A DNA stretch of 64,000 nucleotides from Mucilaginibacter mallensis (GTDB lineage: Bacteria; Bacteroidota; Bacteroidia; Sphingobacteriales; Sphingobacteriaceae). Positions within the stretch are counted from its first letter, which is position 1. Each line of letters begins with the position of its first letter. Position numbers and translations under genes: made by a program. The DNA is taken from the NCBI RefSeq assembly GCF_900105165.1, contig NZ_LT629740.1:62001-126000 (forward strand), given 5' to 3'. Below, piece after piece: positions 15,867-58,618 of the stretch. Under the pieces are notes generated by a model. The model did not search any database. It was not told the DNA's origin and saw only the letters and a list, made by a program, of their open reading frames with translations.

Positions 15867-16883
15867 ATGAGCAAAAAGGGAGTTTTACTGGTTAATTTAG
15901 GTACGCCTGATAGTCCTTCAACCGCGGATGTGCGCAAATACCTCAGAGAATTTTTAATGGACCCGAGGGTAATTGATGTAAACCCTGTTTTACGTACAAT
16001 ATTGGTTAAAGGCTTTATTGCCCCTACCCGCGGACCGAAATCAGCCAAACTTTATCAGCAGATCTGGGATGAAAAAACCGGCTCGCCACTTTTGCATTAC
16101 AGCAAACTACAGCAACAATTATTGCAGGATCGCTTAGGCGATAAATATATGGTTGAACTAGCCATGCGTTATCAAAGCCCATCGATAGAGTCAGCATTAA
16201 CAAGGCTGAAAGATGCTTTAGTGCAGGAAATACAGGTAATCCCGATGTTCCCGCAATATGCATCGGCAAGTACAGGCTCAGTGTATGAAAAAATAATGGA
16301 CATTGTGGGTAAATGGCCCACATCGCCAAATATATCCTTCATTAACTCATTCCATGATAATGAACTGATGATTGAGACCTTTGCCAATAACGCGCAAAAA
16401 CATGATCCTGAAAGTTATGACCACATCTTGTTCAGCTTTCATGGCCTGCCGCAACGGCAATTGATAAAATCAGACCATACCCACAGTTACTGCCTTAAAG
16501 TTGATGGTTGCTGCGAAACGCTTAACGATACCAACAAGTTTTGCTATTCGGCGCAATCGCACCACACAGCGAAACTCATCGCCCAAAAATTAAATATCCC
16601 GAAAGAAAAATATACCATTTGTTTTCAATCACGCTTGGGTAGCGACCCCTGGGTACAACCCTACACCAGCGAGATTGTAGCTAAACTAGCCAATGAGGGC
16701 AAAAAACGCCTATTGGTATTTTGCCCCGCTTTTGTTGCCGATTGTTTGGAAACCGTATTTGAAGTAACCAAAGAATACGGCGACGAATTTAAAGCCTTAG
16801 GGGGTGAGCATGTGCAATTAGTAGAAAGCCTGAACGATTCCCCAACATGGATTGACGCGCTGGAGAAAATGGTGAGGGAATAG
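15867..16883 (+). CDS. hemH: ferrochelatase
   Basis: HemH inserts ferrous iron into protoporphyrin IX (or coproporphyrin III, depending on the organism). The protein begins MSKKGVLLVNLGTPDSP, the usual N-terminus, and contains FSFHGLPQRQ with the catalytic His and DPWVQPYTSE and FCPAFVADCLET with the conserved Glu. It is 338 residues when started at 15867; a Met ten codons earlier is rejected because the predicted promoter spans it. The cysteine-rich stretch CLKVDGCCETLNDTNKFC is notable and could hold an iron-sulfur cluster, as in some bacterial ferrochelatases; this is inference. Confidence 0.93.
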   Translation: MSKKGVLLVNLGTPDSPSTADVRKYLREFLMDPRVIDVNPVLRTILVKGFIAPTRGPKSAKLYQQIWDEKTGSPLLHYSKLQQQLLQDRLGDKYMVELAMRYQSPSIESALTRLKDALVQEIQVIPMFPQYASASTGSVYEKIMDIVGKWPTSPNISFINSFHDNELMIETFANNAQKHDPESYDHILFSFHGLPQRQLIKSDHTHSYCLKVDGCCETLNDTNKFCYSAQSHHTAKLIAQKLNIPKEKYTICFQSRLGSDPWVQPYTSEIVAKLANEGKKRLLVFCPAFVADCLETVFEVTKEYGDEFKALGGEHVQLVESLNDSPTWIDALEKMVRE

Positions 16884-46321: not shown

Positions 46322-46516
46322 ATGGATTTAATCAACCACGAAGCCCTAAGCCGATGTATCAGGGATGCAGTCAGGGCAGAATTACAGGTAGAGGGGATGT
46401 TTAAGAAAAAGGCCGAGATTATACCCGGGTTTTTAAATAAGCTATCATCAATTGGCGCACGGTATATAAATAAATCGCTAATTGAACGTATTACTGCAGG
46501 GCTTTATAAAAAATAG
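46322..46516 (+). CDS. small hypothetical protein, 64 residues
   Basis: A short frame starting MDLINHEALSRCIRDAVRAE, with a basic amphipathic C-terminal half. A near-consensus -7 box (TTCATTTG) lies just before the ATG, leaving almost no leader. The codon mix looks coding, but I recognise no family, and it could be a remnant. It ends upstream of the promoter of the PhyH gene. Confidence 0.4.
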   Translation: MDLINHEALSRCIRDAVRAELQVEGMFKKKAEIIPGFLNKLSSIGARYINKSLIERITAGLYKK

Positions 46517-46525
46517 AAAATAAAT

Positions 46526-46555
46526 TTTGGTATGATAAATATTTCTCTACATTTG
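46526..46555 (+). promoter_or_regulatory. promoter TTTG-N18-TACATTTG of the PhyH transcript
   Basis: TTTG (46526-46529) and TACATTTG (46548-46555) are separated by 18 bp and match both Bacteroidota elements. The start point would be near 46562, inside the dyad at 46557-46581 and 30 bp before the poly-Cys leader frame. Confidence 0.7.
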
Positions 46556-46556
46556 T

Positions 46557-46581
46557 AATGTCTACTATATATATAGACATT
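46557..46581. promoter_or_regulatory. dyad AATGTCTA-N9-TAGACATT over the predicted start point
   Basis: Perfect 8-base arms around an AT-rich centre lie across the predicted transcription start. It could be an operator for a repressor, or a 5' mRNA hairpin. No similar dyad is at the other leader promoters. Confidence 0.5.
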
Positions 46582-46591
46582 ATAGAGTTAA

Positions 46592-46675
46592 ATGAATCAA
46601 AACAGTAAGATAAACACCGCAAACTCCATGCGAATGCCTTTCCCCCAGATTGGCTTGTGTTGCTGTTGTTGTTAA
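46592..46675 (+). CDS. poly-cysteine leader peptide (27 residues, five terminal Cys)
   Basis: A 27-codon frame begins Met-Asn-Gln-Asn, contains MRMPFPQIG and ends Leu-Cys-Cys-Cys-Cys-Cys-stop. Five consecutive Cys codons (TGT/TGC) immediately before the stop are very unlikely by chance. It begins 30 bp after the predicted start point and ends 57 bp before the PhyH start codon. The natural reading is an attenuation or translation-coupling leader: when cysteinyl-tRNA is scarce, ribosomes stall on the Cys run and the downstream genes respond. Related poly-Cys frames are at 49157 and 55535. Actinobacterial poly-Cys leaders work in this way, but I know of no described Bacteroidota case, and the peptide itself is not expected to have a function. 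Confidence 0.65.
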   Translation: MNQNSKINTANSMRMPFPQIGLCCCCC

Positions 46676-46732
46676 ATGCCACAAGTATTTTTAATTAACA
46701 AATTCATTTATTATTCCTCCTTTTTATTTTTA

Positions 46733-47536
46733 ATGGACACAACTTATCAAAGGTTCAGCCTTGGTACTGAAATTACTGACGAACAACAAGCTTTTTTTAA
46801 CCGTAACGGTTTTATACATTTTAAGAATTTTATCAACCCCGAAACAGTGCGGGATATTATCCGTGCATCAAAAGAGGTGGAAAAAAACTGGACAGAGAAC
46901 AACGTTGAAAAGATAAACGGTGTGCCGATCAAATATGGTAAGGACCTTGACGGATCCGTTATCGTGCAACGTTTTGCATTCGTCAATCAGCATCATCCCT
47001 TACTTTCAGAGTTTACGCTCGATCCGCGTTTCCAGACTTTATTAGATCTGGTACCGGACTCCCGTTTAGGAGTTGATGAAAAGGATGGTATGGTTTTTAA
47101 TCATTATGTAAACAGTGAGGAAAGCAGCTTTACCAAAATGGGCTGGCATACCGATGGCTTGCGCGATATTTTCCACGGCACAAAATTAAACCCGATGCTG
47201 AACGTAGGCATACACCTGAGTGATGCATCGCCCAATAATGGTGGCCTGCGCATCCTGCCGGGAACACATAAACAAAGCCTGTACCAGGTGCTGTTCCGTA
47301 AAAAGTACTTTCTGGATCATGATGTTGATGAGAACGAAGTAGCTATTACGCCTAAAGCCGGTGATCTCACCATTCACGATGGGCGCCTTTGGCACCGGGT
47401 GGCTCAGTCATCGGTAGTGGGAGAGGAAAGCCGCAGGCGGGTAATTTATATTCCGATAGTAGCAGGGAAATATAAGCCGAAGAATGAGGATAGTCCTACG
47501 GCATTGTACCAGCGCCTGGCCAAAATTGTTAAATAA
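46733..47536 (+). CDS. PhyH-family Fe(II)/2-oxoglutarate dioxygenase
   Basis: A 267-residue enzyme of the phytanoyl-CoA dioxygenase family. The iron triad is visible: HTD in KMGWHTDGLRD and the distal His in DGRLWHRVAQ, with the 2-oxoglutarate-binding Arg in the SRRRVIYIP region. The frame is open upstream to 46676, but that Met directly abuts the leader stop; I chose the ATG at 46733 (MDTTYQRFSLG), after the hydrophobic-looking stretch. Substrates of this family range from acyl-CoA to small metabolites. Its poly-Cys leader suggests a sulfur-related substrate (for example release of sulfite from an organosulfur compound), which is inference only. Confidence 0.78.
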   Translation: MDTTYQRFSLGTEITDEQQAFFNRNGFIHFKNFINPETVRDIIRASKEVEKNWTENNVEKINGVPIKYGKDLDGSVIVQRFAFVNQHHPLLSEFTLDPRFQTLLDLVPDSRLGVDEKDGMVFNHYVNSEESSFTKMGWHTDGLRDIFHGTKLNPMLNVGIHLSDASPNNGGLRILPGTHKQSLYQVLFRKKYFLDHDVDENEVAITPKAGDLTIHDGRLWHRVAQSSVVGEESRRRVIYIPIVAGKYKPKNEDSPTALYQRLAKIVK

Positions 47537-47542
47537 ATTGCC

Positions 47543-47632
47543 ATGATCATAGCAATTATTATTGGCTACTTTATCAGGCGGAAAAAACTGACGGCCGCAA
47601 AAGTTCAGGTATTAAGTTCAGGCAGATCTTAA
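47543..47632 (+). CDS. 29-residue single-helix membrane peptide
   Basis: A short frame (MIIAIIIGYFIRRKKLTAAK at the start) encodes one hydrophobic helix followed by a basic tail. It begins 6 bp after the PhyH stop and ends 10 bp before the antiporter ATG, so it fills the gap between the two genes in the same direction and may be a small subunit or leader for the antiporter. No family can be named. Confidence 0.4.
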   Translation: MIIAIIIGYFIRRKKLTAAKVQVLSSGRS

Positions 47633-47642
47633 AAACATACAT

Positions 47643-48899
47643 ATGATTACTAAACTAAGCTCTACAGAAATCATTCACTTTTTAATCATCTTATTGATTA
47701 TTCTAATACCGGCCAGGCTGCTTGGCGAGCTTTGCCGCAGGTATAAACTCCCGGCAATTATTGGTGAAATTTTTGCCGGAATAATTGTTGGCCCTACTTT
47801 ATTGGGTGCTTTTTCTCCGGGTCTGTTTAATGCTATCTTTATTTCAGCTCCAAAAGCCAGCGGGGCGTTTGACGGGATAGCTAATATTGGCATTATCCTC
47901 CTAATGTTTATAGCAGGTTTTGAAGTTGATTTAAAACAAATAAGGCAAAATGGGAAACAAGCCATCGCCATTAGCTTATCCGGTATATTATTTCCATTCG
48001 CAATTGGATTTGTAACAGTGTGGTTCCTGTTTAAAGACCATTTTGCTAATGGCTTTAATAACCAATTGGTTACATCGCTGTTTTTTGGCACTGCACTTTC
48101 CATTACTGCGCTTTCTGTTATCACTAAAATATTGCTCGACCTGGATATTCTCAAAACAAGGATTGGTAATATAGTATTGACAGCAGCGATGGTAGATGAT
48201 TTTCTGGGGTGGATACTGTTTTCAATCATCATCCAGATGATGATTGCCGGGAAAGAACAGGTTTCTTTTTGGTCGGTTATCACAGTTGTACTATTCGCGG
48301 TGTTTATGCTAACCGGCGGCCGCTGGATTATTCACCGCTTACTTGCCTATGCTGGTAAAAGCGGGAAGATGAGTAACGTATTTACGGTAGCTGTTTGCCT
48401 TTGTTTTGTAGGTGCCGCGGTTACAGAAGCCCTTGGTGTACGCGCAGTTTTTGGTGCATTTTTAGTAGGGGTGGCTATCAGCGATTCCGAGTATTTCACC
48501 GAGACGCATAAGCAGGTATTGCATCAATTTACTATCAACGTTTTGGCTCCATTGTTTTTTGCATCAGTAGGATTAAGGTTAAATTTCATATCCAATTTCA
48601 ACCTCGAAATAGTAGTACTTATACTGGTAATCGCTTTCCTTGCAAAATTGATCGGTGCCCGCATTGGGAGCTCCTTAAGTGGCATGACCAGGAACGAATC
48701 CATAGCGGTGGCTTTTGGCATGAATGCACGTGGTTCACAGGAAATTGTTTTGGGTTTAATTGCTTTACAAGCTAAAATTATTAGCGGCCCTGTGTTTGAA
48801 GGACTAGTAGTTATGACAGTGGTTACCATGGTTATTTCGGGGCCAATTATGAAGTATTATTTTTTAAAGGAGCAAAAATTACAACTGGCTCCAATATGA
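47643..48899 (+). CDS. CPA2-family cation:proton antiporter
   Basis: A 418-residue membrane protein with about 12-13 helices and the CPA2 (KefB/NapA-like) pattern: PAIIGEIFAGIIVGPTLLG, SITALSVITKILLDLD and MVDDFLGWILF with a conserved Asp pair, and NARGSQEIVLGL. It lacks the RCK/TrkA-N nucleotide-binding domain found at the C-terminus of KefB and KefC. It probably exchanges K+ or Na+ for protons. It follows PhyH and the 29-residue peptide in the same direction, so it lies under the poly-Cys leader promoter. Its link to sulfur metabolism is not obvious. Confidence 0.85.
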   Translation: MITKLSSTEIIHFLIILLIILIPARLLGELCRRYKLPAIIGEIFAGIIVGPTLLGAFSPGLFNAIFISAPKASGAFDGIANIGIILLMFIAGFEVDLKQIRQNGKQAIAISLSGILFPFAIGFVTVWFLFKDHFANGFNNQLVTSLFFGTALSITALSVITKILLDLDILKTRIGNIVLTAAMVDDFLGWILFSIIIQMMIAGKEQVSFWSVITVVLFAVFMLTGGRWIIHRLLAYAGKSGKMSNVFTVAVCLCFVGAAVTEALGVRAVFGAFLVGVAISDSEYFTETHKQVLHQFTINVLAPLFFASVGLRLNFISNFNLEIVVLILVIAFLAKLIGARIGSSLSGMTRNESIAVAFGMNARGSQEIVLGLIALQAKIISGPVFEGLVVMTVVTMVISGPIMKYYFLKEQKLQLAPI

Positions 48900-49026: not shown

Positions 49027-49097
49027 GGTCAGGTGGCCGAGTAGTTAGGCACAGGTCTGCAAAACCTGATACAGCGGTTCAATTCCGCTTCTGACCT
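49027..49097 (+). tRNA. tRNA-Cys(GCA)
   Basis: A 71-base cloverleaf: acceptor arm GGTCAGG / TCTGACC with discriminator T (the Cys identity base U73), anticodon stem CAGGT / ACCTG with loop CTGCAAA (anticodon GCA), and T arm GCGGTTCAATTCCGC. CCA is not encoded. It directly precedes the leader of the desulfurase-like gene (60 bp), inside the cysteine gene cluster. Confidence 0.95.
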
Positions 49098-49156
49098 CAA
49101 TTATTTATGAAAATAGATAATTGGTTAGTATTTTTTTAGTTGCAGAAGCGGAAAGA

Positions 49157-49219
49157 ATGATCGGTAAGGCCAACGCTTGTTGCTGCCAGCAGAGGACAGG
49201 CTGGTTATCTTTCTGCTAA
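49157..49219 (+). CDS. Cys-rich leader peptide (20 residues, CCC motif)
   Basis: A 20-codon frame reads MIGKANACCCQQRTGWLSFC and stops 16 bp before the desulfurase-like gene. Three consecutive Cys codons and a fourth Cys just before the stop repeat the theme of the leader at 46592. It lies only 60 bp after tRNA-Cys, and I found no consensus promoter between them, so tRNA and leader may be on one transcript. Confidence 0.6.
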   Translation: MIGKANACCCQQRTGWLSFC

Positions 49220-49235
49220 AGCTTAATTTGATTTT

Positions 49236-50288
49236 ATGAAAGTTTATTTTGACAACGCGACATCGACGGTGATTGATGAGGCTGTATTTATTACTATGCT
49301 CCCTTATTTACGTGGTAATTACGGTATACCAAGTGCCTTGCATGCGCATGGTAGGGCGGCGAATACAGTTATTAAAAAGAACAGGTCAAAGCTGGCAGCC
49401 ATTCTCGGTGTTAACAGTGAAGAAATTGTGTTTACTTCGGGACATTATGAATCGCTGAAGTTGGCAATCAGTTCAGTAATTGAAAGTACCGGCATTGACC
49501 ACATCATAACTAGCAAATATGAGCATCCTTCAACTGTAGCTATATTTTTAACCTTGCAAAGGAAGTTTAATGTAAAAATAAATTACTTGGAACAGGGAGC
49601 TGATGGAACAGTAGATCTGGATCATCTTGGTGTTTTACTGAAGAAAAATACCAATAATTTTATATCGCTTAGCCACGCAAATGTAGAAACCGGAGGTTTA
49701 AACGACATTCAAAAAATAACGGACCTTGCAAGGCAATACCGATCACTTTTACATATCGACGCAGCTTATACGGCGGGCAATTTTCGATATGACTTGAGTA
49801 AGATTGATTTTTTATCTGCTTCGGCTGATAGGTTCCACGGTCCGGCAGGCATCGGCTTTTTATATAATAGGTGGCGTACCAGCTTGATTTATCCTGAACA
49901 GGAAAATACTAATATAGTAAGCATAGTTGGTTTGACGGAGGCACTGACGCTCGCTTATGATAGTTTGGAAGAAAGACGTGAATATATCGGACAGCTTAAA
50001 CAGCGACTGGCGATAGAACTAAGCGAATACATCCCTGATAGTGAAATTATAGGTAATCACGGGCTTGATGATAAAGGTTATTTTGCTTTTTTGAGCGTTA
50101 AATTTCCATCGCTTTTTCAAAATAGGAGTTTACAACAGTATCTCGATGAATGCGAAATTTCGGTATCAGGTAAAATTGAATCGGGTTTTGAGATCATTTA
50201 TTTTACCTTTAGCAAGCTAAATACTCTGGAAGAGATCGATTACGTGGTAGATAACTTGTCTGCTGTTTTTGCGCGCATCAACTATTAA
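49236..50288 (+). CDS. cysteine desulfurase-like protein lacking catalytic Lys and Cys (pseudoenzyme)
   Basis: A 350-residue fold-type I aminotransferase V protein clearly related to NifS/IscS: MKVYFDNATSTVIDEAV at the N-terminus, FTSGHYESLKLAIS (FTSGATE in the family), SKYEHPS with His97, SHANVETGG with Asn149, HIDAAYTAG with Asp175. But the PLP-binding lysine of the SxHKxxGPKG motif is Arg199 here (SASADRFHGPAG), the PLP-contacting Gln is Tyr178, and the loop that normally holds the nucleophilic Cys (SSGSACTS) reads SVSGKIESG. The C-terminal block resumes normally (FSKLNTLEEIDY). It should therefore be unable to act as a desulfurase. Frame and length are intact, so it is maintained as a protein, not a decaying gene. 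It precedes metNIQ and follows a Cys leader. Confidence 0.8.
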   Translation: MKVYFDNATSTVIDEAVFITMLPYLRGNYGIPSALHAHGRAANTVIKKNRSKLAAILGVNSEEIVFTSGHYESLKLAISSVIESTGIDHIITSKYEHPSTVAIFLTLQRKFNVKINYLEQGADGTVDLDHLGVLLKKNTNNFISLSHANVETGGLNDIQKITDLARQYRSLLHIDAAYTAGNFRYDLSKIDFLSASADRFHGPAGIGFLYNRWRTSLIYPEQENTNIVSIVGLTEALTLAYDSLEERREYIGQLKQRLAIELSEYIPDSEIIGNHGLDDKGYFAFLSVKFPSLFQNRSLQQYLDECEISVSGKIESGFEIIYFTFSKLNTLEEIDYVVDNLSAVFARINY

Positions 50289-50608: not shown

Positions 50609-51640
50609 ATGATCGAACTGAGAAATATTACAAAAACATTTTATAAAAAAAACAGCCAGGTAAGCGCTTTGTCTAATGTTTCGCTGATAGTTCCTAAGGG
50701 TAAAATACTGGGGGTGATTGGTGCTTCAGGTGCTGGGAAAAGTACATTAATACGTTGTGTTAACCTGTTGGAACGGCCAACCTCGGGTGAGGTAATCATC
50801 GGCGGGCTTAATTTAACTCAACTTGCCCCTTCAGCGCTCGCTAAAGCGAGGCGGGAAATAGGAATGATCTTCCAGCATTTTAACTTACTATCCTCACGTA
50901 CCGTAGCAGGCAATGTGGCGTTCCCTTTGGAGCTAAGCAATAGGCCGGGCGACGAAATAAAAAAGCGGGTAGCTGAGCTACTGGAATTAGTAGGCCTGGG
51001 GGATAAGGCAAATGAATATCCGGCAAACTTATCGGGCGGGCAAAAACAACGGGTAGCCATCGCCAGAACGCTGGCAAACAACCCTAGAGTGCTGTTATGC
51101 GACGAGGCAACGAGTGCCTTAGATCCAGCAACAACGCTTTCTATTCTTAACCTGTTAAAAGATATTAACAAGCGTTTCCAGATCACTATCCTGCTTATAA
51201 CACACGAAATGAATGTGGTAAAAGCTATTTGCGACGAAGTAGCTATTATCAGCGAAGGGAAATTGATTGAGCGCGGCTCGATAAGTGAAGTGTTTGCCTA
51301 TCCCGAAACTACCATTGCAAAGCAGTTTATCGCGTCTTCGCTGCACGCAACCTTACCTGCCGAATATGAACAACGCCTTTCAGCAACACCTGCGGGTAAA
51401 AATCATCCGGTCATCAAACTGGAATTTAACGGACATTCGGCCGAAGCGTCCATTTTGTCTGAGGCCAGCAGGATGTTTCAGGTAGATAACAACATTATCA
51501 GTGCTCAAATGGATTATACAGGAGGGGTGAAATACGGTGTGATGCTTATAGAGGTTACAGGTAGTAAAAAAGATACGCAAAATTCTCTTGAATATTACCG
51601 CAGTAAACATATAGAAGTGGAGGTGTTAGGTTATGTCTGA
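50609..51640 (+). CDS. metN: methionine ABC transporter ATP-binding protein
   Basis: MetN energises uptake of methionine (and in some bacteria other sulfur compounds). Walker A is [10 protein letters not shown], the ABC signature is [12 protein letters not shown], and Walker B ends [11 protein letters not shown]. The 343-residue length includes the C-terminal NIL domain (about 265-343), which in characterised MetN binds substrate to give feedback inhibition. The gene overlaps metI by 8 bp, so the two are translationally coupled. Confidence 0.95.
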
Positions 51641-52289
51641 ACCTATGCTTATGATGATTCTACAAGGTTTATGGGAAACCATTGTCATGACTTTCGTGTC
51701 CGGTTTTTTTGGCTTTTTGCTAGGATTACCTACGGGAGTATTGCTATTTATGACCCGGAAGGGGCAGGTATCTGAAAGTCGTTTGATAAATGGTGTAGTA
51801 TCTGTACTTGTAAATATATTTCGGTCCATCCCATTTATTATTCTGATTGTATGGATGATTCCCTTTACCAGGGCATTGGTAGGGACATCTATAGGGGTTC
51901 AGGCAGCGCTGGTGCCATTGAGTATTGGCGCCGCGCCTTTTATTGCCAGGATGGTGGAAAATAGTTTGATCGAAATACCAGGTGGGTTAATAGAAGCAGC
52001 TCGCTCAATGGGCGCAACCCCATTGCAAATTGTTTTTAAAGTGCTGATTCCTGAAGCGCTGCCTTCCATTATTGGCAGTGCATCAATCACACTTATTACC
52101 CTGGTTGGCTATTCAGCAATGGGTGGTGCGGTTGGCGCAGGTGGTTTAGGGCAGATTGGCTACCAGTATGGCTATGTGGGCTATGATGTGGTGGTTATGA
52201 ATACAGTGCTTGTCCTTTTAGTTTTACTCGTGTTTATTATTCAAGTTGCGGGTGAGTTTATTGCAAAAAAAGTAGACCACCGTAAATAA
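51633..52289 (+). CDS. metI: methionine ABC transporter permease
   Basis: A 218-residue inner membrane permease with five helices. The EAA-type loop that contacts MetN reads [24 protein letters not shown]. It overlaps the metN end and is 12 bp before metQ, completing a standard metNIQ transporter. Confidence 0.95.
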
Positions 52290-52301
52290 TTTATATAAAA
52301 A

Positions 52302-53111
52302 ATGAAAAATTTATCCCTCATTACTATCGTTGTCATATCCCTTGGATTATCAGCATGTGGAAGAAAAACCCAGCCTAATAATTCTAACCATATTAAAGTT
52401 GGTGTTGAATCAGGGCCGGAGTACACAGTTGCACAGGCAGCCCAGAAAGTGGCTAAAGAAAAATACGGGCTTGATGTTGACCTGGTTCAATTTAACGACT
52501 ACGTAATGCCTAACGAGGCCCTGAGTCAGGGTGACATTGATTTAAATGTTTTTCAAAATAAGCCTTATTTGGATGTGCAGGCAAAGCAGCGTGGCTATAA
52601 ATTTGCTATACTCGGCAATACCTTTGTTTATCCTTTGGCGGGTTATTCCGGAAAGATCAAAAGCATCACGGAGTTGAAAGATGGAAGTACAATTATTATC
52701 CCGAATGATCCTACTAATAGCGGAAGATCTTTACTGCTGTTACAAAAAGCCGGTTTAGTAAAACTAAAAGATAATGTAGGCTTGCTGCCAACTGTAAATG
52801 ATATTGTTGCTAACCCTAAAAGCTTAAAAATCCTGGAACTGGAAGCTCCACAATTGCCAAGAGCGCTCGATGATCAAAAGGTAACTATTGCTATTATTAA
52901 TAACACTTTTGCAGGTCCGGCGGGCCTTGTAGCTAAACGGGATGGATTATTTGTTGAGGATGAAAAATCTCCTTATGTAAATATCATCGTTTCAAGGGAA
53001 GATAATAAAGATCAGGATAACGTGAAGAAATTCGTAAAGTCCTATCAATCTCCCGAAGTTGCAGCTGCTGCTGAAATAGCATTTAAAGGCGGGGCAATTA
53101 AAGGCTGGTGA
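52302..53111 (+). CDS. metQ: MetQ/NlpA-family substrate-binding lipoprotein
   Basis: A 269-residue lipoprotein with lipobox LSACG (Cys20) and the NlpA/MetQ domain (EYTVAQAAQKVAKEKYGLDV, VMPNEALSQGDIDLNVFQNKPYLD in pieces, NDPTNSGRSLLLLQKAGLVKL). It binds methionine or a related compound outside the inner membrane. Given the leaders and neighbours, the transporter may accept cysteine/cystine derivatives as well; sequence cannot decide. Confidence 0.93.
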   Translation: MKNLSLITIVVISLGLSACGRKTQPNNSNHIKVGVESGPEYTVAQAAQKVAKEKYGLDVDLVQFNDYVMPNEALSQGDIDLNVFQNKPYLDVQAKQRGYKFAILGNTFVYPLAGYSGKIKSITELKDGSTIIIPNDPTNSGRSLLLLQKAGLVKLKDNVGLLPTVNDIVANPKSLKILELEAPQLPRALDDQKVTIAIINNTFAGPAGLVAKRDGLFVEDEKSPYVNIIVSREDNKDQDNVKKFVKSYQSPEVAAAAEIAFKGGAIKGW

Positions 53112-53420: not shown

Positions 53421-54293
53421 ATGGCAGGTATTATTGATCTTATAGGCAATACGCCCCTTATTAAATTAACCAGGCTCAACACAAATCCGGATGTGGAAAT
53501 TTATGCCAAGCTGGAAGGTAATAATCCAGGAGGTAGTGTGAAAGACCGCGCTGCTCTCAACATGATTCGGAGCGCTATAGAACTCGGTGAAATAAAGCCC
53601 GGCACTAAACTAATAGAAGCTACAAGTGGTAATACCGGAATAGCCCTCGCTATGATCGCCAGCCTTTACAGCCTTGAAATTGAACTGGTAATGCCATCAA
53701 ACTCGACGCGGGAGCGCACACTTACAATGGAAGCTTTTGGTGCCAAGGTGACTTTGCTAGATAGTATCGAAGCTTGCCGCGATTATGCAGAGGGAAAAGG
53801 AGCAACGAATGGATATTACCTGCTTAACCAATTTGCTAATCCGGATAATTACCTGGCACACTACAAAACAACGGGGCCTGAGATATGGCGTGATACGGAA
53901 GGCAAAATCACGCATTTTGTCAGTGCAATGGGTACAACGGGTACAATCATGGGATGTTCAAAATTCTTAAAGGAGCAAAATACAGCTATACAAATCGTAG
54001 GTTGCCAGCCTACGGAAGACGCCTCTATACCAGGGATCCGCCGCTGGCCCGAGGCTTATCTACCAAAGATATTTGATCCGAATCGTGTAGATCATATCAC
54101 CGATATCAGCGAAACCGATGCTATAGAAACCGCTCGCGCACTGGCTAAGGTGGAAGGTATATTCGCCGGGATGAGCTCGGGTGGTGCTTGTTACGCAGCA
54201 CTTAAATTGGCTGAAGAACTAACATCTGGCGTTATTGTATTCATCGCTTGCGATAGGGGCGACCGATATTTGAGCAGTAACCTCTTCGGATAG
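53421..54293 (+). CDS. cysM: cysteine synthase B (O-acetylserine sulfhydrylase)
   Basis: CysM makes cysteine from O-acetylserine and sulfide (or thiosulfate). The PLP lysine is in GGSVKDRAALN, with EATSGNTGIALAM and MGTTGTIMGC for phosphate and substrate binding. GCQPTEDASIPGIRRWPEAYLP distinguishes CysM from CysK. At 290 residues it has normal length. It lies between metQ and the cysE (EpsC-type) gene, which supplies its substrate, so this is a compact cysteine synthesis pair. Confidence 0.92.
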   Translation: MAGIIDLIGNTPLIKLTRLNTNPDVEIYAKLEGNNPGGSVKDRAALNMIRSAIELGEIKPGTKLIEATSGNTGIALAMIASLYSLEIELVMPSNSTRERTLTMEAFGAKVTLLDSIEACRDYAEGKGATNGYYLLNQFANPDNYLAHYKTTGPEIWRDTEGKITHFVSAMGTTGTIMGCSKFLKEQNTAIQIVGCQPTEDASIPGIRRWPEAYLPKIFDPNRVDHITDISETDAIETARALAKVEGIFAGMSSGGACYAALKLAEELTSGVIVFIACDRGDRYLSSNLFG

Positions 54294-54339: not shown

Positions 54340-54408
54340 CCCGGAACCAATTTTACTCAGTTTCGTATTGTTTGCGTTACGATAGATAAAAGAAGGTTTA
54401 ATACTACT

Positions 54409-54433
54409 AAATCTATAGATTTTTATATGTTTG
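54409..54433 (+). promoter_or_regulatory. palindrome AAATCTATAGATTT adjoining a -7 element (TATGTTTG)
   Basis: A perfect 14-base palindrome (54409-54422) is followed 3 bp later by TATGTTTG (54426-54433), an exact -7 match 58 bp before the cysE ATG. A regulator bound there would cover the promoter spacer. Parts of the palindrome recur before the TonB receptor leader and metN. Confidence 0.5.
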
Positions 54434-54491: not shown

Positions 54492-55307
54492 ATGAGGGAT
54501 AATAATTTGGACGATTTCATAGCGCTTCTTCATCAAACGCATAAAATGGAATGGGAAGCTACACCCAAAACAAAGGAGTGTGTGGCCTGGCTTTCTGATC
54601 TGTTCGAATTTCTATTTCCCAATAACCAAGCCAATAAATTATCTATTTATAGCGGGCAACTTAAAAAGAACCAAATCGATCTGATAAATATTTTGTTAAG
54701 TTACCTTGATGCAAACGATATTAGCATAGAAGACGCTGTAAATTCCTTTTACGATTCGCTGAAGGAAATCTATCTTGACCTGCGCCAGGACGCAACTATG
54801 ATATACGAAAAAGATCCGGCGGCTATCAGCATACATGAAGTAATCGTTTCCTACCCCGGTTTTTATGCCATTGCGGTTTATCGCATTGCTCATAGGTTAA
54901 CCCAATTGGCAATACCAATTTTACCCCGAATTTTATGCGAATATGCACACGGTAAAACGGGTGTCGATATACATCCAAAAGCCAAAATAGGCGTACCTTT
55001 CTGCATAGATCACGGTACCGGGATAGTTATAGGTGCAACAAGTATAATAGGTAAAAATGTAACTATTTATCAAGGTGTAACCATAGGAGCATTGCAGGTG
55101 AGTAAACAACTTTCCGAAACAAAAAGGCACCCAACGGTAGAGGATAACGTGATTATTTACGCTCGGAGTACCATATTAGGTGGCCAAACTGTTATCGGCC
55201 ATGGCAGTGTGATCGGTGGTAGCGTTTTCCTTGCTAAAAGTGTTCAGCCTTATTCACATGTTTTTAATACGCATCAGTTGCGGATTGAAGTAAAAGAACA
55301 ATTATAG
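54492..55307 (+). CDS. cysE: serine O-acetyltransferase, EpsC type
   Basis: The enzyme acetylates serine to O-acetylserine, the CysM substrate. The 271-residue protein has an N-terminal helical domain (1-150) and a left-handed beta-helix made of hexapeptide repeats (about 155-260: GVDIHPKAKIGVPFCIDHGTG, VIGATSIIGKNVTIYQGVTIG, GGQTVIGHGSVIGGSVF). The longer N-terminus is typical of the EpsC-type enzymes of Bacteroidota. It follows cysM by 198 bp, with its own predicted promoter and operator-like palindrome. Confidence 0.92.
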   Translation: MRDNNLDDFIALLHQTHKMEWEATPKTKECVAWLSDLFEFLFPNNQANKLSIYSGQLKKNQIDLINILLSYLDANDISIEDAVNSFYDSLKEIYLDLRQDATMIYEKDPAAISIHEVIVSYPGFYAIAVYRIAHRLTQLAIPILPRILCEYAHGKTGVDIHPKAKIGVPFCIDHGTGIVIGATSIIGKNVTIYQGVTIGALQVSKQLSETKRHPTVEDNVIIYARSTILGGQTVIGHGSVIGGSVFLAKSVQPYSHVFNTHQLRIEVKEQL

Positions 55308-55462: not shown

Positions 55463-55515
55463 AAAATCTATAAAATCTATAGGAATTGTAGAATTAAAAA
55501 ATAATTATATATTTG
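55463..55515 (+). promoter_or_regulatory. promoter with AAAATCTATA direct repeats before the TonB receptor leader
   Basis: AAAATCTATA occurs twice in tandem at 55463-55482. Just downstream are a -33-like ATTG (55485-55488) and an exact -7 TATATTTG (55508-55515), 19 bp apart. The start point would be near 55522, 13 bp before the leader peptide ATG. Confidence 0.55.
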
Positions 55516-55534: not shown

Positions 55535-55621
55535 ATGACTTCGCCTACCATTAAAGGTTTATCACAATCTCAACAATCACTTTTCACATTCAAAGTGATA
55601 AAAATGTTTTGTTGTTGTTAG
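55535..55621 (+). CDS. poly-cysteine leader peptide (28 residues, three terminal Cys)
   Basis: A 28-codon frame begins MTSPTIKGL and ends MFCCC before a TAG stop. Like the frame at 46592 it places its Cys run directly at the stop codon, and it starts 13 bp after a predicted start point. The next gene, a TonB-dependent receptor, begins 258 bp downstream, with a perfect hairpin in between. The design is what one expects of a Cys-sensing attenuator: stalling at the Cys codons would change folding or termination further along. Confidence 0.6.
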   Translation: MTSPTIKGLSQSQQSLFTFKVIKMFCCC

Positions 55622-55755: not shown

Positions 55756-55786
55756 ATGGACCGGCAAGGTAGCCTTGCCGGTCCAT
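55756..55786. other. perfect 14-bp hairpin in the receptor leader
   Basis: ATGGACCGGCAAGG and CCTTGCCGGTCCAT form perfect 14-base arms around TAG. On the plus strand there is no T run after it; on the minus strand it runs into TTTTT like a terminator, but there is no minus-strand gene to end. It lies within the mRNA leader between the poly-Cys peptide and the receptor. Confidence 0.65.
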
Positions 55787-55879: not shown

Positions 55880-58618
55880 ATGCAATTATTTATACGTAAA
55901 AAACAGGTGCCTGCCTTATCAAGGCTATTATTAAGTTTTATCATTCTTTTCACAGCATATGGCGCTTCGGCCCAATCAATATTAAAAGGCAAAATTTCCG
56001 ACCCACAGGGAGCGCCGCTGGTAGGCGCCACTATTAAGACCGATGAAAGTGGTGGAACAAGTTCTGATGCAAACGGAGCATATTCAGCAAAAGTGACTAA
56101 TGGCAAACATAAATTAACTTTTTCGTTTACCGGATTTGAAACCATAGTACTTCAAATTAACATTGCTGGTGCAGATACAACGATAAATGTGACATTAAAT
56201 CCGTCGTCAGGGAATACTCTAAAAGAAGTAGTTATTTCTACAGGTATCAGAACAAAGCCCCGCACGATAACAGATAGTCCGGTGCCGATTGACATTGTAG
56301 GCGGAAAAGACCTGGCCAGCACAGGGCAGCCTTCGTTTGACAAGGCTTTAGAATACCGGGTACCGTCTTTCAATACAGTAAATACACCTGTAAATGATGC
56401 TACTTCCCTATTAGACCCCTATGAAATACGCAACCTGGGGCCAAGTCGCACCCTGATTTTAATAGACGGTAAACGTAAGAACCCTAGTGCCCTTACTTAT
56501 ATAGTGCCATCCCCTGGTCGGGGAGAAGGCGGTGCAGATCTTTCGGCAATTCCAATCGACGCCATTGACCATATCGAAATATTGCGTGACGGAGCTTCGG
56601 CACAATATGGTTCGGATGCGATAGCAGGTGTTTTGAACGTAATTTTGAAAAAGAAAAGTAATTATGGCGCTATAACATTAAACAGCGGTATAACAGGCAA
56701 AGGGGATGGTGGACGCCTTGGGGTAAGCTTAACAAACGGAGTTATTCTCAATAATGACGGCTACATCAATTATACCCTTGATTTAAGCCATATAGGTAAA
56801 GCGGACAGGCCGGGAATCGTTTCTGCAATTGGAGAAGCAAACAGCAGCACTGGTTTTGGTGCCGACATCAATGTTGTTAATGCCTATCTGGCAAAATATC
56901 CTACTGCAAACAATCATAACGCTGACCCGGAAAAAACGGCAGGTAAATTTCTGATCAATGGCGGCATCCCACTCGATGAAAATAGTCAGGTTTATTTTAA
57001 TGCTGCCTATGTTGCCAAAAAGGTGAACAGTTTTGCCAATTTCCGCACACCATATTGGCAGAGTACAGACTATGGCCTGCTCCACGCGGCAGGTACAGAA
57101 TACATCGGCTATGGGCCAACCTTTGAGGGCGACTTGTCAGATTACAATGGAACAATTGGTATCAAATCCCAAAAAAATGGCTGGAATACAGATGTAAGTT
57201 TTACCACCGGGGGGAATCAACAATTGTATACCGTGAATAATACTATAAATAACAGCTTAGGTGTAAACAGCCCTATTAGTTTTAAAACAGGTGGGTTCTC
57301 ATTCTCCAATAATATCGGCAATATAGATATATCAAGAAAGGTGACCGACCAGTTAAATATTGCCTTTGGTAGTGAGTTCAGGGTAGAACGGTGGCAATTG
57401 ATTCCTGGCGATACGGCCTCCTACTCTGGTGGTGGTGCACAGTCGTTTCCTGGTTACCAGGCCAAAAATGCAATCATAGCCAATAGATACAATCTTGGCG
57501 GATACTTTTCGTTGGATTATGACGTCACTCATGACTTTCTCGTAAGTGGTACCATACGTGATGAACAATATAGCGATTTTGGTAATACCTTTGTTTGGAA
57601 ATTAAGTTCCAGATATAAACTGCTTGATGATAAACTGACTTTACGTGGTTCAGCATCTACCGGCTTTAAAGCTCCTTCGCTGGCACAATTGTATGAACAG
57701 TTATCGACGCCTGCAGTTAGCGGTGGCACGGTTATCACCCAGGGCCTTGTGAACAATATCAGCCCGCAGGCAAAGGCAATCGGAATACCCGAACTCAAAC
57801 CGGAGAAATCGCTCAATTTAACTGCAGGTGTTGGCGTAAACCCTGTAGATAATTTAAATATTACGCTTGACTACTATAATATTAAAATCACCGACCGTAT
57901 CATTTTGAGTAATACGATAGGGCCTGGCACCGGGCCCGGCGCGGCAGGATTAGATAGTGTATTATCTAAAAACCATATTGCGAAAGTTATTTTTTTTACC
58001 AACGGGTTGGATACAAGAACACAGGGACTTGATTTTGTAGCATCTTATCGCAATATATTATTGGGATCAGGCAGATTGGGATTAAATGTTTCAGGTAATT
58101 ATACCTTGGAAAATAAAAATCTGGGCACCATAAATCCACCGCTGATTGAAGCAGCGGGCGCTTCCGTTATTAACGCCAACTTTGAGGCTTTACTGTTAAC
58201 CTCTCGCCCCAAATTTAAATATATACTCGGGGCAGATTATAGAATTGGTAAATGGTCGTTCAATGCCAATGAAACCATATTTGGCCCAACAACTTTTCAT
58301 GATACCGACAATGAATTGAACCCCAATTTAAATGTTGTATTTAAAACAAAAGGGGTAACAGATATTGGCTTCAACTTTGATATTTTAAAAAACCTGACGT
58401 TTAGTGGAGGGGTTGAAAACCTGTTTAATGTTCTTCCCAAATGGCATTTTGTGGCGCCCAATGCCGCAGGGCAAGCAGTGCTAGCGGATCCGGCCCAGGT
58501 GTTGTATAATACCAATGGGATAACCTTCAATGGCAGATATCCGGTAACTACTAATAATGGCTCGCAATTTAGCCAACTGGGCATAATTTATTCTGCCAGT
58601 TTAAAATTAAAATTTTAA
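55880..58618 (+). CDS. TonB-dependent outer membrane receptor
   Basis: A 912-residue receptor. A signal peptide (LLLSFIILFTAYGASAQ) is followed by a carboxypeptidase-like regulatory domain (about 32-115: LKGKISDPQGAPLVGATI), a plug domain (about 120-260, including LILIDGKRKNPS and EILRDGASAQYGSDAIAGVLNV) and a beta-barrel ending SLKLKF, the usual aromatic C-terminus. There is no SusD gene next to it, so it is not a typical glycan receptor. A poly-Cys leader precedes it and a DAACS symporter follows, so it may import a sulfur compound such as cystine or a peptide. The ligand is inferred. Confidence 0.9.
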   Translation: MQLFIRKKQVPALSRLLLSFIILFTAYGASAQSILKGKISDPQGAPLVGATIKTDESGGTSSDANGAYSAKVTNGKHKLTFSFTGFETIVLQINIAGADTTINVTLNPSSGNTLKEVVISTGIRTKPRTITDSPVPIDIVGGKDLASTGQPSFDKALEYRVPSFNTVNTPVNDATSLLDPYEIRNLGPSRTLILIDGKRKNPSALTYIVPSPGRGEGGADLSAIPIDAIDHIEILRDGASAQYGSDAIAGVLNVILKKKSNYGAITLNSGITGKGDGGRLGVSLTNGVILNNDGYINYTLDLSHIGKADRPGIVSAIGEANSSTGFGADINVVNAYLAKYPTANNHNADPEKTAGKFLINGGIPLDENSQVYFNAAYVAKKVNSFANFRTPYWQSTDYGLLHAAGTEYIGYGPTFEGDLSDYNGTIGIKSQKNGWNTDVSFTTGGNQQLYTVNNTINNSLGVNSPISFKTGGFSFSNNIGNIDISRKVTDQLNIAFGSEFRVERWQLIPGDTASYSGGGAQSFPGYQAKNAIIANRYNLGGYFSLDYDVTHDFLVSGTIRDEQYSDFGNTFVWKLSSRYKLLDDKLTLRGSASTGFKAPSLAQLYEQLSTPAVSGGTVITQGLVNNISPQAKAIGIPELKPEKSLNLTAGVGVNPVDNLNITLDYYNIKITDRIILSNTIGPGTGPGAAGLDSVLSKNHIAKVIFFTNGLDTRTQGLDFVASYRNILLGSGRLGLNVSGNYTLENKNLGTINPPLIEAAGASVINANFEALLLTSRPKFKYILGADYRIGKWSFNANETIFGPTTFHDTDNELNPNLNVVFKTKGVTDIGFNFDILKNLTFSGGVENLFNVLPKWHFVAPNAAGQAVLADPAQVLYNTNGITFNGRYPVTTNNGSQFSQLGIIYSASLKLKF

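Follow-up and report, generated by a model that had tools for sequence, protein, structure and literature searches.

The 27-codon frame that precedes a PhyH-family dioxygenase gene in the window (the whole 64,000-nucleotide stretch of Mucilaginibacter mallensis DNA analysed here) is very probably a leader peptide that senses cysteinyl-tRNA, and one member of a cysteine/sulfur regulon of about 12 loci that mostly lie beneath a shared operator-like motif (Table 1). At PhyH, the leader frame, its Cys run and the operator-like motif are conserved in sequence, and at the sulfite reductase gene (cysI) the terminator and its complementarity to an antiterminator are, by the same kind of comparison, conserved within the genus. 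That the ribosome stalls in the leader, and that a shortage of cysteine leads to expression, we infer by analogy and from the antiterminator/terminator anatomy at the genome's own sulfite reductase leader.

Table 1. Features of the PhyH leader region and its sulfur-related neighbourhood in the window
Feature	Position	Strand	Basis or remark
Duplicated segment including the leader; other copy behind an intact SDR-like gene	46387–47659	.	99.5% over 1275 columns
Bacteroidota-type promoter: TTTG 46526–46529, TACATTTG 46548–46555	46526–46555	+	Found by eye
Operator-like palindrome TCTACTATATATATAGA, just 3' of the -7 element	46561–46577	.	Motif search; not in the sequence-only reading
Leader ORF, 27 aa, MNQNSKINTANSMRMPFPQIGLCCCCC	46592–46675	+	Translated frame; near-identical long form in close relatives, e.g. 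L064–L066, L081, L082
Conserved leader core, 15 aa, MRMPFPQIGLCCCCC	46628–46675	+	Inner ATG at 46628
Weak remnant of the Mucilaginibacter in-leader hairpin	46636–46654	+	Window segment not among the 25 folded; near relative L064 z -2.34
Five Cys codons TGT TGC TGT TGT TGT, proposed Cys-tRNA-Cys sensor	46658–46672	+	Sequence, genome-wide pattern count, ortholog comparison
PhyH-family dioxygenase (Pfam PF05721), predicted controlled gene	46733–47536	+	E 8.5e-18; start by conservation
tRNA-Cys (GCA)	49027–49098	+	In the PhyH cluster
Candidate Cys sORF MIGKANACCCQQRTGWLSFC before the NifS-like gene	49157–49219	+	sORF reading; weak, left out of the leader count
NifS-like class V aminotransferase	49236–50288	+	Below NCBIfam cut-offs
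MetN, MetI-like permease and MetQ, methionine uptake	50609–53111	+	MetN and MetQ by family search; MetI-like ORF 51633–52289 by position
Cysteine synthase CysM	53421–54293	+	Family search, above cut-off
Operator-like site ACTACTAAATCTATAGA before serine acetyltransferase	54403–54419	.	Motif search
Serine O-acetyltransferase, CysE/EpsC type	54492–55307	+	Family search, below cut-off
Operator-like site TCTATAAAATCTATAGG	55467–55483	.	Motif search
Second Cys leader of the window, MTSPTIKGLSQSQQSLFTFKVIKMFCCC	55535–55621	+	sORF between operator-like site and TonB gene
Strong GC hairpin TGGACCGGCAAGG-TAG-CCTTGCCGGTCCA (ACCGGCAAGG...CCTTGCCGGT), between second leader and TonB gene	55757–55785	+	Folding, -28.6 kcal/mol
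TonB-dependent receptor behind the second leader	55880–58618	+	Below cut-offs; best matches are TonB receptor families

The sequence-only reading had described a 27-codon frame ending in five Cys codons before its stop, and this was confirmed, the TAA at 46673–46675 following the Cys codons directly. It had also called such runs rare by chance, and a pattern of five Cys codons plus a stop indeed occurs three times in the 6.01 Mb genome, compared with no occurrence of a reversed control pattern. The three matches are the window leader, an identical copy (G000:C1:3834807–3834890) and an antisense case (G000:C1:5055665) that faces the Gln-rich end of another ORF and was rejected as an artefact. 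The two identical leaders belong to the 1.27 kb duplication, whose copies are 3.7 Mb apart. A minus-strand sORF in the window (16097–16165) was likewise rejected as a Cys leader, being antisense within a 348 aa ORF. Among the short ORFs with five adjacent Cys (40 stretches), 6 of the 11 listed lie inside larger ORFs, so many of the TGY-run matches elsewhere are probably artefacts too. Such an antisense or compositional origin does not apply to the frame at 46592–46675. The ATG at 46676, which abuts the leader stop, was considered as the start of PhyH and rejected; the conserved start lies 57 nt after the stop.

The region upstream of PhyH was compared across the best 80 of 139 relatives drawn from named records, a sample that leans to close relatives and contains, among others, Mucilaginibacter, Flavobacterium and Pedobacter. 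Within the 300 nt that precede PhyH, every one of the 80 loci has a frame that starts with ATG and contains three or more Cys codons in a row, and in 60 of them the run is four or longer. Dinucleotide shuffles gave a run of at least three in only 20 of 8000 cases, with none longer than three. The longest runs consisted of three (20 loci), four (12), five (16), six (19), seven (6), eight (6) or nine (1) Cys codons; the leader of Flavobacterium johnsoniae strain CI04 (L115), for instance, has six. As a control, 740 regions preceding other genes of these loci were examined; 21 reached a run of three, and 19 of these 21 belong to three gene clusters that themselves carry such leaders. A chance origin of the window leader was rejected on the genome-wide pattern count together with the ortholog and shuffle comparison.

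While the Cys run is kept, the rest of the peptide drifts, as can be seen in the leaders of different orthologs (MRMPLITRAMCSCCC, MSNKRSKFNFRKDRMQANMRMCCCCCCCCC, MSIKTDNNYSLNRSMAMLQMMKPMQCCCC and MFESIMKFNNTRKFYLYSFSKICCCC), which range in length from 14 to 62 aa. Pairwise mismatches in the N-terminal part are spread nearly evenly over the first, second and third codon positions (904, 932 and 1011, respectively), without a marked third-position excess, and the peptide before the Cys run is therefore, as judged from this pattern, hardly selected as a protein. The Cys tract varies in length by whole codons among loci. In the aligned tracts from Flavobacterium, 27 of 35 differences from the consensus, counted over distinct tracts, fall at third codon positions; in Mucilaginibacter the figure is only 13 of 24, with Ser codons and shifted alignments contributing. 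The retention of frame and run in relatives was the check that had been proposed for the leader, and together with the drifting N-terminus it supports the earlier view of the Cys codons as the conserved, sensing part. It also bears on the possibility that the Cys-rich sORF has no role in cis and instead encodes a functional small protein that binds metal or thiols or is itself the dioxygenase's peptide substrate. A poly-Cys peptide could bind metal and an oxygenase gene adjoins, but the N-terminus and length vary freely. Similar Cys-rich ends also precede unrelated genes (cysI, TonB receptors, carbonic anhydrase and thioredoxin-like proteins), and at cysI the Cys sORF is tied to a terminator and an antiterminator. 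We consider a small-protein function extremely unlikely.

In 17 of the 80 loci (16 named Flavobacterium and one [Flexibacter]) the Cys tract is not followed by a stop, and the leader overlaps the PhyH start out of frame. Within the Mucilaginibacter group, 22 of 30 loci have no in-frame ATG before that of the MRM motif (46628 in the window). The sequence ATGCGAATG is invariant in an alignment of 26 sequences, which comprised L041, L209 and 24 of these 30 loci but not L085, where ATGCGAATG is missing. In L041 (1507–1554) and L209 (approximately 2213–2260), PhyH-type MRM...CCCC leaders stand before other genes, serine carboxypeptidase-like by eye. In a phylum sample of 198 genomes, PhyH matches with an E value of 1e-60 or lower came from 13 genomes and 15 loci. 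The leader was present at all six loci with at least 70% identity (five genomes, including both copies from M. mallensis), and no run of three Cys was found at any of the nine loci in this sample with more distant homologs (48–69% identity). One of these nine, L302, keeps an operator-like site.

Upstream of the leader, the sequence CTA-N9-TAG is found in 75 of the 80 PhyH orthologs and TAnnTTTG in 70. When the M. mallensis genome was searched with the operator-like motif TCTACTAAATCTATAGA, allowing up to three mismatches, 36 sites were found, compared with 21 for the reversed pattern, and 30 of the 36 were read in context. All ten sites with no more than two mismatches lie upstream of ORFs and outside ORFs. 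At seven of these ten a Cys-rich sORF stands between the site and the gene, six of them with three adjacent Cys and two being the duplicated PhyH. Altogether 12 Cys leaders were counted in the genome. Eleven of them lie near the operator-like motif, and the leader of the sulfite reductase operon has no match to it. Besides sulfite reductase and the two copies of PhyH, the leaders precede three TonB-dependent-receptor-like genes (one in the window and two outside it named by eye), a Porin_O_P gene with a Pst-type ABC transporter behind sulfate assimilation genes, and genes for an AhpC/TSA-domain protein of 438 aa, a fatty acid hydroxylase family protein, a carbonic anhydrase, a 336 aa protein without an assigned family and a 213 aa protein that is redoxin-like by eye. 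Poly-Cys sORFs thus occur at several sulfur loci of one genome, though not all of the targets plainly belong to sulfur metabolism. An sORF in L277 ending SHTCCCHYNI has no operator match just upstream and was excluded from the count. In Flavobacterium, an operator site (L295) precedes a TonB-receptor-like gene with MKIMQNCCCK upstream.

The spread of the motif raises the possibility that the operator alone is in control, bound by a repressor perhaps of the Rrf2/CymR type, with the sORF a by-product of the 5' UTR. The palindrome presumably resembles an Rrf2/CymR-type site, and it recurs at nearly all PhyH loci. Operator-like sites without a Cys leader are found before the serine acetyltransferase gene of the window, an encapsulin shell gene and a sigma-factor-like gene, as well as in L302, and the sulfite reductase operon has an Rrf2 gene immediately before it, whose product is by its position a candidate repressor. 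Control by the operator alone would nonetheless leave the Cys runs at 80 of 80 PhyH loci and the attenuator anatomy at cysI unexplained, and no operator match was found at cysI. We regard it as very improbable.

Several tRNA-Cys genes stand beside regulon loci, one in the window, one in L277 (14221–14292) and two in L278 (5748–5819 and 5905–5977), and a DNA search with the window gene gave a further match at G000:C1:4010619–4010690 (86%). Bacteria commonly have one tRNA-Cys gene. SAM-I riboswitches were located at three places among the regulon loci (L277 13075–13178 and 14543–14657; L278 4394–4513), and one of these immediately precedes a Cys leader. A fluoride riboswitch near the locus of the 213 aa protein (L282 2255–2317) is probably unrelated.

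In the genome's own sulfite reductase operon (L276, minus strand) the Rrf2 gene stands before sulfite reductase, and more genes follow, CysH-, CysD- and CysN-like ORFs among them; CysD, sulfite reductase and Rrf2 were named by search and the others by sequence and position. The cysI leader, MKINHTNCPCCKINCYCCMNSDNPLL, starts with GTG almost on top of the -7 element and contains seven Cys. On its 3' side lies AACGCCTCTTTAGCCTTAAAGCCAAAGAGGCGTTTTTAT, followed by the sulfite reductase start codon. A standard terminator scan did not report the cysI terminator, probably on account of its loop limit, but folding reveals it, and the attenuator fold has a z of -4.0, with none of 200 shuffles as good.

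A genus sample gave a cysI match in 40 of 60 genomes and 30 loci including the M. mallensis one, of which 29 were examined (L344 was dropped as its start was not recognised). An sORF with at least two Cys lies upstream of cysI in 23 of the 29 loci and one with at least three in 13, a count made without a shuffle control; L337 and L342 gain an sORF when the bounds of the upstream stretch are set differently. A stem with a T tract ending 20–34 nt before cysI is present in 24 of the 29, where the lenient filter alone passes 27. In the 22 loci with both leader and terminator, the region of the leader stop is complementary to the 5' arm of the terminator (mean z -1.97), with p < 0.05 in ten and a positive z in one. 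Many of the leaders end in CGG CTA TAA or TGG CTG TAA and the terminator arm has TAGCC or CAGCC. A terminator with an alternative antiterminator is thus found at cysI, and the anatomy of this leader, as read from the sequence, is that of a textbook transcription attenuator. A ribosome running through to the leader stop would cover the antiterminator strand and allow the terminator to form, and one stalled at the Cys codons would free that strand so that transcription continues. Of 30 CysD loci only one had an intergenic sORF with CCC, and the leader is taken to belong to the start of the operon.

Leaders of this type at cysI extend to several families. Nine further cysI upstream regions included five with a Cys leader and four without, two of the four from the genus of M. 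mallensis. In L355, L356 and L357 (families f19, f10 and f13) the leader is followed by a terminator, recognised by eye, and the other two with a leader, L361 and L362, belong to the genus of M. mallensis. L356 has two Cys leaders and two terminators (by eye) in tandem before a single sulfite reductase gene. In a phylum sample of 148 genomes, 22 had a cysI match and all 22 were examined. Five carry a leader, namely three of the six f1 loci, L380 (f51) and L381 (f68). The last of these lies outside the class, is only 37% identical and has a terminator; no terminator was found for the leader of L380. No cysI leader was found at any of the ten f50 loci or at the other three f1 loci of this sample. 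In total, Cys leaders at cysI are found in six families (f1, f10, f13, f19, f51 and f68), five of them with a terminator.

At PhyH, neither a terminator nor a fold masking the ribosome binding site (RBS) was found between the Cys run and the gene, either in fold scans or in an alignment from Flavobacterium, in which 34 of 41 eligible loci gave eight pairs, none of them compensated. The stretch from the Cys run to 40 nt into PhyH is less folded than its shuffles (mean z +1.15). From the leader start to PhyH the RNA is slightly more folded than shuffles (mean z -0.85), and a weak fold is possible. The locus therefore shows neither the terminator and antiterminator of a classical attenuator nor the RBS-masking mRNA structure, opened by a stalled ribosome, of the mycobacterial type. 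Since no such structure was found, the output at PhyH would probably be translational or Rho-dependent, a proposal that we hold at about an even balance.

In Mucilaginibacter, the leader contains a hairpin with changing stem sequence between MRM and the Cys codons; over 25 distinct segments, its mean z against mononucleotide shuffles is -2.74. This hairpin and the invariance of ATGCGAATG would be consistent with a signal that resides in the RNA structure of the leader, as in a riboswitch, rather than in translation of the Cys codons. A search of the whole window against Rfam gave no match to the leader at the gathering score, however, and even at E values up to 5 only a distant minus-strand hit at chance level. 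The lack of compensated structure in the Flavobacterium alignment and the variation of the Cys tract, which changes in length by whole codons and in Flavobacterium differs mostly at third positions, also argue against an RNA signal, which we find exceedingly improbable.

Under the preferred reading, a leader that senses cysteinyl-tRNA, the frame would be translated as soon as the mRNA appears. With ample Cys-tRNA the ribosome would pass the Cys codons and leave the leader, and with scarce Cys-tRNA it would stall in the Cys tract, leading to higher expression of PhyH downstream. Ribosomes that do not stall, or the bare RNA left behind them, may disfavour PhyH, and a ribosome parked in the Cys tract some 50–100 nt upstream may leave the start free and shield the mRNA.

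The run of codons for the regulating amino acid stands before a gene of matching metabolism, clearly so for cysI and for PhyH by its neighbourhood. The nearest named relative by PhyH is Mucilaginibacter sp. X5P1 (95%), and the nearest solved sequences are distant (ectoine hydroxylase EctD, E 0.0011; leucine hydroxylase, E 0.0026). Together with a CPA2 antiporter and an SstT/DctA-like symporter, the genes listed in Table 1 make the region look like an island for cysteine and methionine supply. Control of the antiporter by the leader, as proposed in the sequence-only reading, was not borne out, as a CPA2 antiporter lies near PhyH in only 11 of the 80 loci (some of which are short) and none was called beside the second PhyH copy of the genome. 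Behind PhyH in L071 lie genes for a family 2A encapsulin shell and its cysteine desulfurase cargo, and 10 of the 80 PhyH loci contain a member of the shell cluster. The encapsulin shell cluster, the cysteine desulfurase cargo cluster and an acetyltransferase-like cluster are near PhyH in L071, L072, L074, L078, L079 and others, shell and cargo being named for L071. The encapsulin/desulfurase neighbourhood suggests a link of PhyH to sulfur storage. The hairpin between the second leader of the window and its TonB gene is terminator-like but lacks a T tract on the plus strand, and a similar hairpin (-21.7 kcal/mol) is present at another leader-bearing TonB gene in L280.

Several observations weigh against a Cys-tRNA-sensing leader. 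They are the low degree of folding between Cys run and PhyH, the overlaps with the PhyH start in 17 of 80 loci, the 20 of 80 loci with only three Cys, the lack of compensated pairs in Flavobacterium, the 13 of 24 third-position differences in Mucilaginibacter, and the absence of leaders from distant PhyH loci and some cysI loci.

Polycysteine leaderless sORFs before several sulfur loci of mycobacteria were reportedly described by Canestrari et al. in 2020 as a ribosome-directed regulon in which Cys-tRNA is sensed by ribosome pausing. Here a single genome has short ORFs with consecutive Cys codons in front of several sulfur loci, and the same is said of mycobacteria. The present system differs in its phylum, in the 5' UTR of the PhyH leaders (the cysI leader may be nearly leaderless), in the operator-like motif beneath most leaders and in the classical terminator and antiterminator at cysI. 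The mycobacterial model is also said to need a structure masking the RBS, whereas none was found at PhyH. The S-box (SAM-I) riboswitch regulon is another case of sulfur regulation by RNA, but it senses SAM by an aptamer, and the PhyH and cysI leaders fall below every Rfam gathering score.

Candidate Cys leader peptides have been reported in Mycobacterium, Propionibacterium and Bifidobacterium (Seliverstov et al. 2005, PMC1262725). As described there, they resemble the PhyH leader in having Cys runs near the stop and no conserved terminator, with Rho suggested; they belong to Actinobacteria, and "Bacteroid-" is absent from the main text of that paper. In Rhodobacterales, the uORFC-8-2 motif before cysS (PMC8632094) is presented as a uORF in which tandem Cys codons are combined with an intrinsic terminator. 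It resembles the cysI leader in this, but has cysS as its single target, contains two Cys codons and is alphaproteobacterial. Within the phylum, leader-peptide attenuation has been inferred for amino-acid operons of Flavobacterium psychrophilum (PMC9723704), where the passages concerned name no cysteine leader, and statements on leader peptides in Bacteroides thetaiotaomicron (PMC7366714) are, in the relevant passages, general ones. No Cys leader in Bacteroidota was found in the open-access full-text literature searched, which accordingly does not contradict the earlier statement that no described case was known from this phylum. What would be new here is the use of a known kind of sensor in another phylum, where a single genome combines two types of output and most leaders lie beneath an operator-like motif.

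On a wider scale, we lean slightly towards a phylum-wide, ribosome-read cysteine regulon in Bacteroidota. It would combine an operator-bearing transcriptional layer with poly-Cys leaders, one for each of about a dozen loci, and have two outputs, a terminator at sulfite reductase and a terminator-free form at PhyH and others. It would share loci with SAM riboswitches and also with a number of tRNA-Cys genes, which would set the sensed pool. If this is true, control by poly-Cys leaders would not be peculiar to Actinobacteria but a general means of cysteine sensing in a major phylum of soil, water and gut. It would tie genes of unassigned role, such as PhyH and its SDR neighbour, the lipid hydroxylase and the TonB receptors, to cysteine supply, and would make it possible to look for sulfur genes in thousands of genomes by a test at the DNA level. 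Bacteroidota make little use of Shine-Dalgarno initiation, and the terminator-free leader would offer a model of the way in which a ribosome, by stalling, turns on the gene behind it.
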